Position numbers and translations under genes: made by a program. A stretch of 64,000 nt of DNA from Natrinema mahii (GTDB taxonomy: Archaea; Halobacteriota; Halobacteria; Halobacteriales; Natrialbaceae): assembly GCA_000690595.2 (NCBI GenBank), contig JHUT02000006.1, positions 136,575 through 200,574 on the forward strand, in the 5' to 3' direction. Below the pieces are notes generated by a model. It saw only the letters and a list, made by a program, of their open reading frames with translations, was not told the origin of the DNA and ran no database searches. Every line of letters starts with the position of its first letter. Within the stretch, counting starts at the first letter, position 1. This document shows positions 48,531 to 55,735 of this stretch, piece after piece.

Positions 48531-50093
48531 CTACCGTGGCGCTTTTGCCCGTCGTTCGATCGATGATTGCATCTCACGCATGAACTCGTCTACCGTGTTC
48601 CCCATAAGAATAACCGGCCGCCCCTCGGCGAGCAAGTCAGTTAGGACCCGTTCTGGGTCTGCCCTCGGGCTGTGGCGCTCGGTCGGCACATCGATGTTTT
48701 CGGCGAATGCCCGTGTGTTAGCCCCGCCAGCGTGCGCTTCGGTGATCAAGTCGCGCTCAAAAAGCAATTCGATATACTGCGCAAATGACGCCGTACGCCC
48801 CCGTCGATCCCTTCGGAGGTACACAAATGGCGTGATATATTCGTCATCGACAAGCATCCGTCGCACCATCTCCGTGCTTTCGACGTCATTTACTTCGGCA
48901 GCATTGAAAACACGCCCCCCTTCGACTGCGATCCACGTCGGTTGGATCGAACTGAGAAATGAGTCCATCTCGTCAGTTGGAAGCGGCCGTTCACCAACGG
49001 CGTCTAACACTGCATCGACTGCATGAATCGTTTCGGCACCGATCAGTCCTTCGTGTTCGTCGGGAATCTCAACCTGCTCAATCGTCCCTCCCCGACGTTC
49101 TATCTCTTTCTGCATATATTCGTGCAAGACTGGGTGTTGCTCACCGCTTACGACGTGTGTCCCCGCCGGGACCGACCGCGCAAACGAGCGTGCGAGGTCC
49201 GTCCGAGTTTTCCCGAGGGTATCTGTGTGATCCTGACGGACGTTTGTTAACACGATAATATCCGGATCGGTCAGCCGCTGGTTGAATAACCGTGTCGTAT
49301 ATTCCGTGATCCCCTGATTCTCGAAGATTGCGACGTCGTCGGGTTCGTATGCATCAAGTTCGGGGACGAACTCGGCGATAAGACTGATATTCTCGTAGAG
49401 CGTCGTTCGAGGGCCCCGTCGTTCGATCGGGTGAACCTCACCGTTGTGGATCAGCAGCGGATGGTTGCCGGTGATCTTCGTGAGCGTGTCATATCCCCGA
49501 CGGTTGAATACGTCGTCGAGCCGTTGGGTAGTTGACGATTTGCCACGAGTACCCGAGACGACAATCTGGGTATCGATTCGGTCGAGGATCTTGCGATGCC
49601 GGATACCCCTTGTTACTTCACTCACCAGCCCCGTCAAACTCGACGCACCGACTTCGATTGGGTTCGGACCGGCCTTCCACTCATATTCGGCCCCAACCAA
49701 AAACATCGGGAGCGCCCCCGCCGCATAGTCGAGGAACTGTTCCGATGCGGACTGTGCCGATGCTTCTGTCGGGAAGCGATCGGCACTGTGTCCCAGTACC
49801 GCGTTTGCGATTTGGAGCCGCCAAACCCAGTTGTTTCTCCCCTCCGGGAATTCTCCCGCCGGTGTAGGTTCTCGTTCGACGATGATCTCGGGTGCGTCGA
49901 TGTCGGTATCCGGGAACGACTGTTCGCTTCCCGATAGTTCGGCAACGGCGGCCCGAACTAAATCAACCGCTTCACGTGCCGCTCGAGACGTATCGTAGTG
50001 ACGACTACCGGTTGCGAGTACCCCCGCTGGCTCTCGAAGGCGCCATGACCAGCCGAACCCGCGGCCATAAATCTCGAAGGCCGTCCGGCTCAT
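48531..50093 (-). CDS. capB: poly-gamma-glutamate synthase CapB/PgsB with N-terminal YegP-like pair
   Basis: Membrane-associated amide ligase that polymerises gamma-glutamate using ATP; Mur-ligase fold. The P-loop GTRGKSST is at residues 181-188, followed by TGNHPLLIHN, GITEYTTRLFNQRL, NVRQDHTD and the later EQHPVLHEYMQKEIE. Residues 6-50 and 86-125 look like two YegP/DUF1508-type units, each with W-x-W-R-L (WSWRL and WVWRL) after a beta start (FEIYGRGFG). A standard CapB has about 390 residues; the extra ~130 are this N-terminal pair. The stop overlaps the upstream partner as ATGA, in one operon with capC. Confidence 0.88.
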   Translation of the reverse strand: MSRTAFEIYGRGFGWSWRLREPAGVLATGSRHYDTSRAAREAVDLVRAAVAELSGSEQSFPDTDIDAPEIIVEREPTPAGEFPEGRNNWVWRLQIANAVLGHSADRFPTEASAQSASEQFLDYAAGALPMFLVGAEYEWKAGPNPIEVGASSLTGLVSEVTRGIRHRKILDRIDTQIVVSGTRGKSSTTQRLDDVFNRRGYDTLTKITGNHPLLIHNGEVHPIERRGPRTTLYENISLIAEFVPELDAYEPDDVAIFENQGITEYTTRLFNQRLTDPDIIVLTNVRQDHTDTLGKTRTDLARSFARSVPAGTHVVSGEQHPVLHEYMQKEIERRGGTIEQVEIPDEHEGLIGAETIHAVDAVLDAVGERPLPTDEMDSFLSSIQPTWIAVEGGRVFNAAEVNDVESTEMVRRMLVDDEYITPFVYLRRDRRGRTASFAQYIELLFERDLITEAHAGGANTRAFAENIDVPTERHSPRADPERVLTDLLAEGRPVILMGNTVDEFMREMQSSIERRAKAPR

Positions 50094-51256
50094 GTCTCCT
50101 CACCTCCGGAGAGAACCGACGCAGAGAGAACGTCCTCTTCACTCGGTGGTGCCACGGTATACCAGTACGCGACTCCAAGAGCAGCTATCCAAATAATTCC
50201 TGTAATCCCCAGAACGGGCACCGTCAACTCTTGTGGAAACCCGCGGGGCTGCGGCGAACTGAACAGTCGGGCGATAATCAAGGCGGGGACAAATACCACG
50301 ATCTGAAGCGGGACGACGAGGCGGCGCTCGAATGGTGCCGAAGCGTGCGCATTGTACGCCCCGACACCTGCCAGGATCGCGGTGAAAAACGCCGACAGCC
50401 CTCGCTCGATCGGCACGACGAGCGTCAGCGATACGGACGCGAAAATCGCGACCGCGACAGTCACGCCAAGAAGCACCCGTCCGTACCGGAGTGTGAGATA
50501 GTTCGATAGCTGGATGAAGCCAAACGATAGCGCAAGCAAGAGGACGTACAGAACCACGAGCCAATAACTCGCTAACGCGTAAATAGCGAGGAGGACCGCA
50601 CCGATGATTCCGACACGAACGCCGAACCGACCACGGAGTCGTTCGGAGAGAACGAGCCCACCAGCGAACAGACCGGCCACGATCTCCCGAGGTAGTATTA
50701 CGGATTCGGGGTCGAAGGACACTGCAACACCGTTGTAGGTAGCGACGTCCGCGGTCGGAGAGAAGAGAATCGGGGGTGTCGATGCACCAAACTGCTGTGC
50801 AAATCCGGTAGAGACCAGTACCCAGCCGAGCGCAGTGAGGCCAGCGAAGAGCCCGATGCTCGTCAGGAAGTCGTTTCGACGATACTCCGGTTTGATTTGA
50901 TGGTAATTATAGGCGGCTAGTCCCGGGAGAATACTGCCGAGGAACGCGATCACTCCCACTTCAAGGCCTAATTGGAGGATGAAAAAGAGCGTGACTACTG
51001 GAACTGCCGTTCCGATACCTATCGCTGCGACGAGTTCGTCGCGACCAAAAATTAACGTTCGACGCCGCAAAATCCACAGGCCGACGTAGGCAGTTGTAGC
51101 GCTCAGCAAAAAGACAGGGAGCATAACGAAGTTTTTTAGCGTGTATACCGCAAGAACGGGAATGGTAATCGACCCGCCCATACGATACCCGGTAAATTGG
51201 GTGATTCCCCCGACGCTCAGCAAACCAACAACAGCGACTATCGTGGCCACCCACAT
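50090..51256 (-). CDS. capC: poly-gamma-glutamate synthase membrane subunit CapC/PgsC, internally doubled
   Basis: A 388-residue membrane protein with about ten hydrophobic segments. Standard CapC has ~150 residues; here two related halves can be seen. The first has IPVLAVYTLKNFVML, RRRTLIFGRDELVAAIGIGTAVPV and GSILPGLAAYNYHQIKPEYRRND; the second has IVAGLFAGGLVLSER..FGVRVG, RYGRVLLGVTVAVAI and ILAGVGAYNAHASAPFERRL. The shared G-x-x-A-Y-N-x-H-x-..-x-R motif closes each half. It partners CapB for polymer synthesis or translocation. Overlaps capB by 4 nt. No capA-like exporter gene is adjacent. Confidence 0.85.
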   Translation of the reverse strand: MWVATIVAVVGLLSVGGITQFTGYRMGGSITIPVLAVYTLKNFVMLPVFLLSATTAYVGLWILRRRTLIFGRDELVAAIGIGTAVPVVTLFFILQLGLEVGVIAFLGSILPGLAAYNYHQIKPEYRRNDFLTSIGLFAGLTALGWVLVSTGFAQQFGASTPPILFSPTADVATYNGVAVSFDPESVILPREIVAGLFAGGLVLSERLRGRFGVRVGIIGAVLLAIYALASYWLVVLYVLLLALSFGFIQLSNYLTLRYGRVLLGVTVAVAIFASVSLTLVVPIERGLSAFFTAILAGVGAYNAHASAPFERRLVVPLQIVVFVPALIIARLFSSPQPRGFPQELTVPVLGITGIIWIAALGVAYWYTVAPPSEEDVLSASVLSGGEET

Positions 51257-51314
51257 TGTGACTATCTACCGACTCCTGCATCTTTACTGTTTCAATTGAA
51301 GAGATACGATTCGC

Positions 51315-51686
51315 TCACTCGAGGGTTTGCTGTACACGCCCGGCGAGCTCGGATTTATTAAACGGCTTAGCCAGAAAATCGTCCGCGCCTGCCTCAAGCG
51401 CTCGAACGATGTCCTCCTCTCGACTTCTCGATGTTAGCATAATAACTGCTATCTCCTGGGTCTTTCCGTGTTCTCGGATGCGATCGAGAACCGAAAATCC
51501 ATCGGCTTCTGGCATCATAACGTCAAGAATGACCGCTTTCGGTGGCGAATCTGAGTACGCCGCTAAATACTCCCATGCCTTCTCGCCATTTTCGACGGTC
51601 TTCACCTCGAACTCCTCACGGAGACTGAGACGGATCATCTCTCGGATGTCTTCGTCGTCGTCGGCAGCCAGAATGTCTGCGGGCAT
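51315..51686 (-). CDS. CheY-like response regulator
   Basis: A 123-residue stand-alone receiver domain: acidic pocket ADDDED (9-12), phosphoacceptor Asp55 (VILDVMMPEADGF), Thr/Ser in MLTSRS and Lys in FLAKPF. No output domain, so it would act by protein contact. Divergent from the large sensor kinase and 59 bp from capC, which makes control of capsule synthesis or stress signalling plausible but unproven. Confidence 0.9.
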   Translation of the reverse strand: MPADILAADDDEDIREMIRLSLREEFEVKTVENGEKAWEYLAAYSDSPPKAVILDVMMPEADGFSVLDRIREHGKTQEIAVIMLTSRSREEDIVRALEAGADDFLAKPFNKSELAGRVQQTLE

Positions 51687-51791
51687 ACTGGAGAGATATC
51701 CTTCCACTTTCTTAATCCTCAGCCTTCCGAGTGTGGGCGGTCGATAGCTCCTCGAAGTGTCGAAGACAGGTCGATCGATCGATTTAGCGGG

Positions 51792-51802
51792 AAATATTTA
51801 AC
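51792..51802 (+). promoter_or_regulatory. TATA-like box of the sensor kinase
   Basis: aaatatttaac centred about 31 nt before the GTG at 51830. Confidence 0.45.
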
Positions 51803-51829
51803 CCATTCGGCGCCCGACATTCAGCAACC

Positions 51830-54800
51830 GTGCTCGGTCTTACCGACGAACTGGACGATACGATCCGAGTCCTCTATGTGAACTCCGATTCCTCGTTCGC
51901 CGAGTTGGTCCAAACCAAACTGCAACAGACGAGTATCGAGATCGACTGTATACCGGTGGGCGGTGTCGATGAGACGCTTCAACAGCTTGCGACGGAACGG
52001 ATCGACTGTATCGTAACGGCGTATTCGCTCGAAGACGCGGACGGTATCGAACTTACGAAATCAGTTCGACAGCAGAACGACGATATTCCGATAATCCTAT
52101 TTACCGGACAAGGGAGTGAGGACATCGCGAGTGATGCGACTCGTGCCAACGTATCGGATTATATTCCTGTCCGCTCGGATCGTGACAACTTCACGCTGCT
52201 TGCGGCTCGAATTCGAACGCTCACACACGCCGCACGGAAACGATCGGCGGCTGAGCGGACGAAACGACGCTTCCGACGAACGCTCGAACGAGCTACTGAC
52301 GCGGTTTACGCTGTCGATAGCGACTGGCGTATCGAGTACATGAACGAGAAGATGGCAGAGCGAGTCGACTGTGATCAGGACACCGTCGTCGGAAAGACTC
52401 TCTGGGAGGAGTTTCCCTCAATCGTCGGAACGGACCTCGAGGACAGATATCGAACTGCAATGGAGACCGGCGACCCCGTATCGTTCGAACAGCGTCTGGG
52501 TGACCCGTTCGACTACTGGGTCGAAGTACGAGCCTTTCCCGACGATGACGGTCTGACCGTCTTTTCGCGCGAGATTACTGCTGAGCGAGAGCGGGAACTG
52601 GAGCGACAGCGGAGTGACGCGATCCTAGAGAACATCCACGACGTCGTGATCGTTCTCGATGAGACGGGGAATGTCGCGTTTGCGAATACGGCTGCGAATC
52701 GGTTGATTGCGGGGAACCAGTCGGCTCAGCTCACAGGACAACAGCTTGAAGCGGCCGTCGGTGACCGCATTAGCGAGTCCGAGGCAGAGCAGTTCTCCCG
52801 GGCAGTCGAATCGACGCTCGGCGAGCTAGAGGAAGATGGTGGCCCCACCGGGTTGGACGAGACGGATCTCCAACTCGACATCACGGTTGGGAGCAGTGAA
52901 CGAACGTTTGATATCCACGTAACGCCGTTCCGGAGTGGAAAACGCAATCAAGTACTCGTCGTCGCTCGAGACAGCACCGAACAAACCGAGGTCACGCGCC
53001 AGTTGGAACGGGAGCGGGACGCACTCCGAAAACTCCAGTCCGTCATGGCAGAAAGCGGTGTCTCGACCGAGTCACGGCTCCGGAAACTACTGGAAGTCGG
53101 CTGTCAGACCCTCGAACTCGAAATCGGGATCGTCTCACGGATTCGGGACAACGACTACACGGTCAAGGCAGTTCACGCCCCGGATGCCGAGATCGAGGTC
53201 GGTGATCAGTTCGATCTCGAATCGACGTACTGTGAGGAAGTCGTCGGCAACGAGGCAGTCTGCGCGTTCGAAGATGCGATTGCCGAAGGGAAAACGACAC
53301 ACCCTGCGTATCGCGAGTTCGAGTTGGAGTCGTACATCGGTGTCCCGCTCGTGGTCGGTGGCGACCGCTATGGGACAGTGAACTTCTCGAGTCCGACGAC
53401 ACGGGTCGCCCCGTTCGGAGCGCTCGAACGAACGTTCGTCGAACTGTTATCGCAACTCGTGAGTGCCGAACTCGAGCGCAGTCGGGACCGTGCTGAACTC
53501 GAGCGTCAGGAGTATCTGTTCGAGCGCGTGCAGGATATCGCGGACATCGGTGTCTGGGAGTACTCCCCATCGACGGGTGAACTCACCTGGTCCGACGGGG
53601 TCCGTCGGATTCACGGTGTCGACGAGGACTACGAGCCGTCGCTGGGCGACGCAATCGAATTCTATCATCCTGACGACAGAGCGATGATTACCACAGCAGT
53701 CGACGAGGCAATCGAAGACGGACGACCCTACGACCTCGACCTCCGAATCGTTCGACCCGACGGAGAGGTACGTGACGTTCGGGCGTGGGGCGAACACGTC
53801 GATAACCCACAGCGCGGTGAGACAGCGCTTCGCGGCGTGTTTCAGGACATAACCGAGAGAGAAGCGGAACGACGTACGCATCGGGAACTCGCGGAGGAAT
53901 ACGAGGCACTGCTCGAAACGTCCGGCGACGCAATATTCCTGCTCGATGTCGATACTGCTGGCGCGGATCCAGCTTTCGAGTTCGCCCGGCTCAGTCCCGG
54001 ATACGAGACACAGACCGGGCTCACAACAGAGGACGTTCGCGGGAAGACACCGCAAGACGTGTTTGGCGACGAACAGGGGACTGAACTCGAAGCCAATTAC
54101 ACTCGCTGCGTCGATCAGCGTGAACCGATTTCGTACCGTGAAGAGCTCGATATCGGGGACGATGCTCGGTTCTGGGAGACGACCCTCGCACCAGTCATCG
54201 TCGACGGCGAAACCGTTCGAGTCGTGGGAATCGCTCGAAACGTCACCGAACAAGTCGAGCGAGAGCGCGAACTCGAAGCAACGAACCAGCGACTGGAATC
54301 ACTGATCGAGGCCACGCCACTCACGGTGATGGAAATCGGCACTGACGGGACCGTCATCCGCTGGAACGATGAGGCTGAACATATGTTCGGCTGGTCGCGG
54401 GAAGAGGTGCTCGGTGCGTTCAACCCGATCGTTCCGGACGAGCGGAAGGCCGAATTTGCATCACACAAGCAACGTGCCCTGAGCGGCGAGCGGATCCGCG
54501 CGAAGGAGATACGACGGGAAACGAAAGACGGAGACGAACTGGATCTGCTCTTGTCGGTCGCTCCGATTACAGGTCCCGACGGGGAAACCACGAGCATCCT
54601 TGCCGTCTTGGAGGACATTACCGAACAGAAACAGTTGGAAAGCCGTCTCCGCTCGCTTCAGGAGACTGCACAGGAACTTAGCGCCGCGACATCAAACGAA
54701 GAGATCGGAACGATCGCCGTTGCTGCGGCGGTCGAGATACTTGACTTTGACATCACCGGGATTTGGGAATACGACGATCGAGAGGACGCACTCCTCCCGA

Positions 54801-55735
54801 TTACGGAAACTCCCGCAGCACGAGAACTGTTTGGTGATTCCCCCCGGTTCACACCCGGTGACGGCCTCGCTTGGGATGCCTTTGAGTCGGGAGAAACCAA
54901 GGTGTATGACGATGTCCAGACCGAGGCGCAACCCCACAACCCGGACACGGAGATCCGAAGTGAGATTCTCGTCCCGCTGGGCGAGTACGGGCTCCTATCG
55001 ACCGGGTCGGTTTCCACGCAGGTCTTTTCGGAGGCGGACGTTGACCTGTTTCGGATTCTCGGTGCGACCGTCGAGGCAGCACTCGCACGAGCGAGTCGGG
55101 AAGCGGAATTACACCGACAGAACGAGCGACTCGACGAGTTCGCGAGCGTCGTAGCTCACGACCTTCGGAATCCACTCTCCGTCGCGATGGGGTTTCTCGA
55201 AATCGCAAAGGAGACTGAGGACGCGGATCACTTCGAAAAGGTCGAGTCCGCACACGACCGTATCGAACGCCTCATCGAGGATCTCCTTACGCTGGCACGT
55301 GGAGAAGCGATGATCGAGGATGCAAAAGCGGTCGATCTCGAGCGAATCACAACGGAGGCATGGGGATACGTCGATACTGACGAAGCAACGCTTACAGTGA
55401 CGGATGACGTCCCGACAGTAACCGGCGATGCAGGGCGGCTGACCCAGCTCTTTGAAAATCTCTTCCGAAACGCAGTTGAACACGGTGGTGCCGACGTCAC
55501 GGTGACCGTGGGTCGACTGGCCGAGGACGAGGGGTTCTACGTTGCGGATACCGGCAGCGGAATTCCCCAGGAGAGACAAGACGACGTGTTCCAGCACGGT
55601 GTCACGTCCAGTGAGGGTGGAACCGGCTTCGGCCTCTCGATCGTGGCCGACATCGCGAAGGCACACGGCTGGACGGTCTCGGTGACGGACGGAGCCGATG
55701 GCGGGGCACGGTTCGAGTTCAGGGGATCGACGTGA
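51830..55735 (+). CDS. multidomain sensor histidine kinase with degenerate receiver
   Basis: 1301 residues. Order: receiver-like domain (12-125), then PAS (about 145-260), PAS (265-385), GAF (400-550), PAS (560-680), PAS (690-805), PAS (815-925), GAF (935-1085), HisKA (1095-1155) and HATPase (1190-1301). The receiver has lost its phosphoacceptor: DCIVTAYSLEDADG has Ala64 where Asp is needed, so it is a pseudo-receiver. The kinase is intact: VVAHDLRNPLS (phospho-His), NLFRNAVEHG (N box), VADTGSGIPQE (G1) and GGTGFGLSIV (G2). Soluble, no membrane helix, so it senses cytoplasmic signals, possibly redox or aromatic ligands through PAS/GAF. Confidence 0.93.
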   Translation: MLGLTDELDDTIRVLYVNSDSSFAELVQTKLQQTSIEIDCIPVGGVDETLQQLATERIDCIVTAYSLEDADGIELTKSVRQQNDDIPIILFTGQGSEDIASDATRANVSDYIPVRSDRDNFTLLAARIRTLTHAARKRSAAERTKRRFRRTLERATDAVYAVDSDWRIEYMNEKMAERVDCDQDTVVGKTLWEEFPSIVGTDLEDRYRTAMETGDPVSFEQRLGDPFDYWVEVRAFPDDDGLTVFSREITAERERELERQRSDAILENIHDVVIVLDETGNVAFANTAANRLIAGNQSAQLTGQQLEAAVGDRISESEAEQFSRAVESTLGELEEDGGPTGLDETDLQLDITVGSSERTFDIHVTPFRSGKRNQVLVVARDSTEQTEVTRQLERERDALRKLQSVMAESGVSTESRLRKLLEVGCQTLELEIGIVSRIRDNDYTVKAVHAPDAEIEVGDQFDLESTYCEEVVGNEAVCAFEDAIAEGKTTHPAYREFELESYIGVPLVVGGDRYGTVNFSSPTTRVAPFGALERTFVELLSQLVSAELERSRDRAELERQEYLFERVQDIADIGVWEYSPSTGELTWSDGVRRIHGVDEDYEPSLGDAIEFYHPDDRAMITTAVDEAIEDGRPYDLDLRIVRPDGEVRDVRAWGEHVDNPQRGETALRGVFQDITEREAERRTHRELAEEYEALLETSGDAIFLLDVDTAGADPAFEFARLSPGYETQTGLTTEDVRGKTPQDVFGDEQGTELEANYTRCVDQREPISYREELDIGDDARFWETTLAPVIVDGETVRVVGIARNVTEQVERERELEATNQRLESLIEATPLTVMEIGTDGTVIRWNDEAEHMFGWSREEVLGAFNPIVPDERKAEFASHKQRALSGERIRAKEIRRETKDGDELDLLLSVAPITGPDGETTSILAVLEDITEQKQLESRLRSLQETAQELSAATSNEEIGTIAVAAAVEILDFDITGIWEYDDREDALLPITETPAARELFGDSPRFTPGDGLAWDAFESGETKVYDDVQTEAQPHNPDTEIRSEILVPLGEYGLLSTGSVSTQVFSEADVDLFRILGATVEAALARASREAELHRQNERLDEFASVVAHDLRNPLSVAMGFLEIAKETEDADHFEKVESAHDRIERLIEDLLTLARGEAMIEDAKAVDLERITTEAWGYVDTDEATLTVTDDVPTVTGDAGRLTQLFENLFRNAVEHGGADVTVTVGRLAEDEGFYVADTGSGIPQERQDDVFQHGVTSSEGGTGFGLSIVADIAKAHGWTVSVTDGADGGARFEFRGST

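Follow-up and report, generated by a model that had tools for sequence, protein, structure and literature searches.

An open reading frame on the minus strand (48531-50093) of the window, by which we mean the whole 64,000-nucleotide stretch of Natrinema mahii DNA that was analysed, encodes a protein of 520 amino acids, and its ATG overlaps the stop codon of the upstream capC gene, in an operon-like layout. The features of the locus are given in Table 1.

Table 1. Features of the capB locus, in positions of the window.
Feature	Position	Strand	Evidence
YegP/DUF1508-type unit 1, residues 4-54	49932..50084	-	DUF1508 and HVO_2922 scores, 3bid profile match, repeat-protein profile, model
YegP/DUF1508-type unit 2, residues 68-132	49698..49892	-	6q2z profile match, repeat-protein profile, model, YegP fold match
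Linker between doublet and ligase, residues 133-155	49629..49697	-	low pLDDT
CapB/PgsB-like Mur-type ligase, residues 156-520	48534..49628	-	TIGR04012, Mur_ligase_M, FolC/MurT/Mur folds, P-loop
capC, 388 aa, two CapC stretches	50090..51256	-	Pfam Caps_synth_CapC, 91.8 bits
Stand-alone response-regulator receiver, 130 aa, without output domain, upstream of capC	51315..51707	-	receiver models
Histidine kinase, 1301 aa, divergent from the receiver gene	51830..55735	+	Pfam Response_reg, PAS, GAF, HisKA, HATPase_c
Four-gene cassette, shared DNA block	48542..55730	.	blastn, ~82% identity to relatives of other haloarchaeal families

In the ligase part, TIGR04012 (NCBIfam PgsB) matched residues 160-339 with 84.8 bits, Mur_ligase_M matched residues 179-303 with 23.5 bits (cut-off 24), and a CapB-only profile matched from about residue 156. 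The sequence GTRGKSS at residues 181-187 fits the P-loop pattern G-x-x-G-K-[ST] and is kept in relatives, and the best fold matches of the full-length model were FolC, MurT and Mur ligases. The equivalog cut-off of TIGR04012 (222.7 bits) was missed by the window protein and also by haloarchaeal relatives with a plain CapB, lacking the N-terminal part described below (94-107 bits), therefore we call the protein CapB/PgsB-like and not a TIGR04012 PgsB. CapB/PgsB ligases join glutamate in an ATP-dependent manner, together with CapC (PMC5751247). The window protein would belong to the amide ligases of the Mur/FolC superfamily that depend on ATP, and it is probably active as such, with a putative polyglutamate-type product.

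A sequence-only reading of this DNA had proposed that about 130 extra residues with two W-x-W-R-L repeats precede the ligase. The extension exists, its length is nearer 150 residues when judged by the start of the ligase profiles (about residues 156-160), and both repeats were found, WSWRL at residues 15-19 and WVWRL at residues 89-93. This N-terminal part (N-part) consists of two units and a linker of about 23 residues, and unit 1 carries the motif YGRGFGW. The window protein alone scored 13.5-17.7 bits against Pfam DUF1508 (cut-off 22) and 15.8-20.2 bits against NCBIfam HVO_2922 (cut-off 90). Because the match to DUF1508 lay in unit 1 only, the call of unit 2 needs a family profile or a structure. 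The assignment became firm once relatives were included: of 22 N-parts, 18 matched DUF1508 (best E 8.6e-8) and 19 matched HVO_2922 (best E 3.2e-10), both at E<=1. When a profile of these 22 N-parts was searched with hmmsearch against 177,635 PDB sequences, HVO_2922 (6q2z) ranked first with unit 2 (E 2e-4) and NMB1088 (3bid) second with unit 1 (E 0.007), and the next match had an E of 0.3. Matches of the N-part to Imm5_like, Arm-DNA-bind_3, haemagglutinin and others were weak, scattered and at chance level, and were rejected.

A further profile was built solely from stand-alone haloarchaeal repeat proteins, which are genuine DUF1508 members (L015 scored 197.8 bits with Pfam); since these were themselves found with the window protein as query, the profile is only partly independent. 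It reported both units in 25 of 25 N-extended CapBs and none in any plain CapB. On the window copy it gave an E of 5e-10 for unit 1 and 0.0045 for unit 2, and unit 2 was weak in several CapBs (for example, E 0.35 in L110). Long haloarchaeal proteins of many DUF1508-type units were seen at L015, L016, L017 and L020, with a membrane-like N-terminal sequence also predicted at L017, and the genome of N. mahii itself holds a many-unit protein of this type (C1:816184-818346, an open frame of 1039 aa).

The N-part was modelled by AlphaFold2 without templates. Unit 1 was predicted to form strands at residues 5-11, 14-21 and 24-29 and a helix at 36-53, and unit 2 strands at 69-74, 89-95 and 98-103, a helix at 110-124 and a strand at 128-132, so that residues 4-132 of the model make the tandem beta-beta-beta-alpha(-beta) pair that characterizes the YegP/DUF1508 (UPF0339) fold. 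Blocks of 10 residues within both units averaged a pLDDT of 75-97; low confidence was limited to the linker, where the blocks that cover residues 131-160 fell to about 40-60. A Foldseek search of the predicted N-part against 350,542 PDB chains returned just two matches at E<0.001, both tandem YegP proteins: YegP of E. coli (2k8e, E 6.6e-5, TM 0.77 on the target) and SO3888 of Shewanella (2k49, E 4.5e-4, TM 0.71). The third match had an E of 0.04 and a probability of 0.28. The YegP-like fold is an internal repeat of two beta-beta-beta-alpha-beta domains (PMC2954219), thus the doublet corresponds to a whole YegP. By profile and predicted fold, residues 4-132 of CapB are a YegP-type pseudodimer of two DUF1508 units. 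The fusion of CapB to two YegP/DUF1508-like units that the sequence-only reading had put forward was in this way borne out by sequence profiles, structure prediction and relatives.

We considered whether the N-part might instead stem from a start codon read wrongly, or be a disordered stretch, and so be unrelated to YegP. The window protein alone, scoring below the curated Pfam and NCBIfam cut-offs, would be consistent with this, but the results of profile searches, structure prediction and selection contradict it, as does the overlap between the start codon and the capC stop; we regard it as highly improbable. Conservation of the N-part and purifying selection on it led us to reject a wrong capB start codon. 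Pairwise dN/dS (simple NG86 counts, of pairs that are not independent) was 0.10-0.38 in the N-part versus 0.03-0.16 in the ligase, which indicates that the N-part is kept, more loosely than the ligase. That the N-part might be merely disordered, which the earlier reading had itself named as the outcome that would overturn its proposal, was likewise dismissed by the confidently folded units and their YegP fold matches.

The architecture survey across haloarchaea that the earlier reading had called for found a CapB match in 74 of the 392 genomes of the order. The survey rested on an alignment-based search; a single-protein scan of the genome contigs had given just five close relatives. The N-part was present in 25 of the 60 capB genes read order-wide and absent in the other 35. 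Beyond the order, the search covered the phylum of the organism and plasmid records. Searching the phylum brought in one more family (f19), which lies outside the class and is represented by two genera; all five capBs read from it had the N-part, with a weak unit 2, beside a CapC of 387-389 aa. Bacterial PgsB relatives on plasmids aligned with the window protein only from about residue 152 onward, which suggests, as far as plasmid records go, that bacteria may lack the fusion.

When the tree was built from the ligase part only, two changes were needed to explain where the N-part occurs; the simplest account is a single gain plus a single loss, which falls in a nested group of five. The branch uniting the N-extended CapBs of both families had moderate support (82/86). 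One relative, a CapB of 683 aa (L094:5324-7372, minus strand), has YegP doublets at both ends, of which the C-terminal one is far more canonical: it exceeds both the DUF1508 and the HVO_2922 cut-offs, and residues 615-662 match DUF1508 at 62.7 bits, far above the Pfam cut-off. This second doublet ties the YegP module to the enzyme independently. Two N-extended CapB-CapC pairs from different tree branches were found in each of two genomes, G381 and G181; in G381 (L081) they lie less than 7 kb apart.

These data bear on the idea that the doublet is an add-on for stability or salt adaptation without a specific partner. In this survey the doublet was confined to haloarchaea and a single other family of the phylum, which would fit such a role, as would the faster evolution of the N-part relative to the ligase. 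Plain CapBs, however, occur in the same salt-adapted organisms and the N-part is still under selection, and we consider this explanation quite unlikely.

A long, doubled CapC adjoined every order-wide locus with a substantial CapB. Both at haloarchaeal loci (L054-L113) and in f19 it measured about 390 aa, with two CapC stretches in the copies scanned; the CapC of L128, from another family, has 159 aa. Because loci with plain CapB have an equally long CapC, the idea that CapC was doubled to partner the doubled YegP was rejected. No CapA (PGA_cap) gene adjoined the window capB. The genome does hold two PGA_cap genes at other places, on C3 and C21, and CapA adjoins some N-extended relatives (L079, L081, L082, L087, L088 and L094).

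A receiver-only response regulator was found directly upstream of capC at 13 N-extended loci that group as a single clade on the tree, and roughly half of all N-extended loci lack it. The Asp, Thr/Ser and Lys residues of its phospho-site are kept in relatives. A histidine kinase gene stands beside the receiver in the window and at most receiver loci. It is divergent in most of them, but L082, L084 and L086 carry it on the receiver's strand, and at L108 no kinase was matched. The kinase of the window has an N-terminal receiver as well as PAS and GAF domains. YGRGFGW occurred in 14 of 14 CapBs with a receiver neighbour, including a truncated CapB whose receiver is truncated too, and in no others. 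All carriers form one clade, so this association counts as a single evolutionary event.

When the window was compared by blastn with L074-L078 and L112, DNA identity of about 82% spanned the four genes and nothing more. In the subclade of the window these genes encode the histidine kinase, the stand-alone receiver, the doubled CapC and the CapB with its YegP doublet, and relatives are located on plasmids of Salarchaeum and others. Since the identity across families is limited to the four genes and relatives lie on plasmids, the block is taken to be a horizontally moving cassette, judging from these comparisons. A transposase was rejected as a component of the cassette: it is found downstream of capB in L074, L076, L077 and L112 and is absent in the window. 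The transposase genes of these four loci are closely related and begin about 60 bases after capB. A decayed cassette was seen in another genome of the same genus (L109 in G026), with the capB frame broken after about residue 239, a truncated receiver, and the kinase on the other side.

A relative of poly-gamma-glutamate hydrolase neighboured 15 of the 35 plain-CapB loci (part of L058-L072, L097, L104 and L106), compared with none of the 24 order-wide N-extended loci. This contrast is not independent evidence, because the plain loci with the hydrolase cluster on the tree. It would nevertheless fit a synthase that itself sets chain length, and thus the proposal, already made in the sequence-only reading as polymer binding or tuning of chain length, that the doublet holds the growing polymer or the acceptor end near the active site, replacing the N-terminal substrate-binding domain of MurC-F, whose position the doublet occupies. 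Against this, the conserved residues of the N-part follow the fold (the W-x-W strand, a G, and D/V/R of the helix) and an alignment of relatives showed neither an obvious ligand pocket nor a conserved basic patch for an acidic polymer; moreover, plain CapBs function as a class without any doublet. We therefore regard polymer holding as rather unlikely.

The reading we prefer, held with about even confidence, is that the doublet is a non-catalytic, cytoplasmic protein-protein module that sets assembly or switching of the ligase. The CapB-like ligase would work with the co-transcribed, doubled membrane protein CapC, and on the cytoplasmic side the YegP-type doublet may let the ligase associate with itself, dock to CapC or receive a regulator. 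In this subclade the most plausible regulator is the co-transcribed receiver, which the neighbouring kinase would drive. We infer a module for assembly or control because conservation in the doublet falls on residues of the fold, because the doublet is kept more loosely than the ligase and can be lost or added again, and because its units also occur as long stand-alone repeats. The loss in five nested relatives and the renewed doubling at the C-terminus of L094 are as expected of an accessory module. A receiver without output domain, accompanying one N-extended subclade together with the kinase, was counted in favor of a control role, but roughly half of the N-extended loci lack the receiver, which rules it out as the partner of the doublet in general. 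A more specific version, that the doublet is a docking platform on which the stand-alone receiver, phosphorylated by the kinase, directly switches the polymer ligase on or off after translation, appears unlikely; the co-occurrence of YGRGFGW and receiver would fit it, as a single evolutionary event.

The components of this protein have known counterparts. E. coli YegP and Shewanella SO3888 share with the N-part two consecutive beta-beta-beta-alpha units with W-x-W/R strands, but YegP is a small stand-alone protein, whereas here the doublet fronts an enzyme, and sequence identity is just 12-14%. Haloferax volcanii HVO_2922 and Neisseria NMB1088, which ranked highest among PDB sequences for units 2 and 1, respectively, each have a single DUF1508 unit of about 60 residues without enzyme fusion, compared with two fused units here. 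Bacterial PgsB/CapB (TIGR04012) of the CapBCA complex shares the P-loop Mur-type ligase and the pairing with CapC; a YegP front end is not described for it, and the window differs in its doubled CapC and in having no adjacent capA. The adjacency of capC and capB is also shared, by description, with Haloquadratum walsbyi, in which the two were proposed as poly-gamma-glutamate capsule genes in a report that does not describe a YegP front end (PMC1544339).

The layout had been called unfamiliar from the sequence, and fairly so: no description of the architecture was found in the literature searched, and the names given to relatives by NCBI are "Mur ligase family protein", "Mur ligase" or "hypothetical protein". 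It recurs well beyond this genome, however. The parts are known; what is new is their combination, and it is no peculiarity of a single genome. In the literature searched, HVO_2922 and YegP appeared only in the contexts of stress, proteomics, structure and defence neighbourhoods, and no function of YegP/DUF1508 was established, despite wide occurrence and solved structures. The recurrent fusion of a YegP pair to one type of enzyme offers a concrete biochemical context in which the role of this fold can be tested. The fusion further marks out a group of archaeal CapB ligases hidden under generic annotation, some of which move together with a two-component system of their own.
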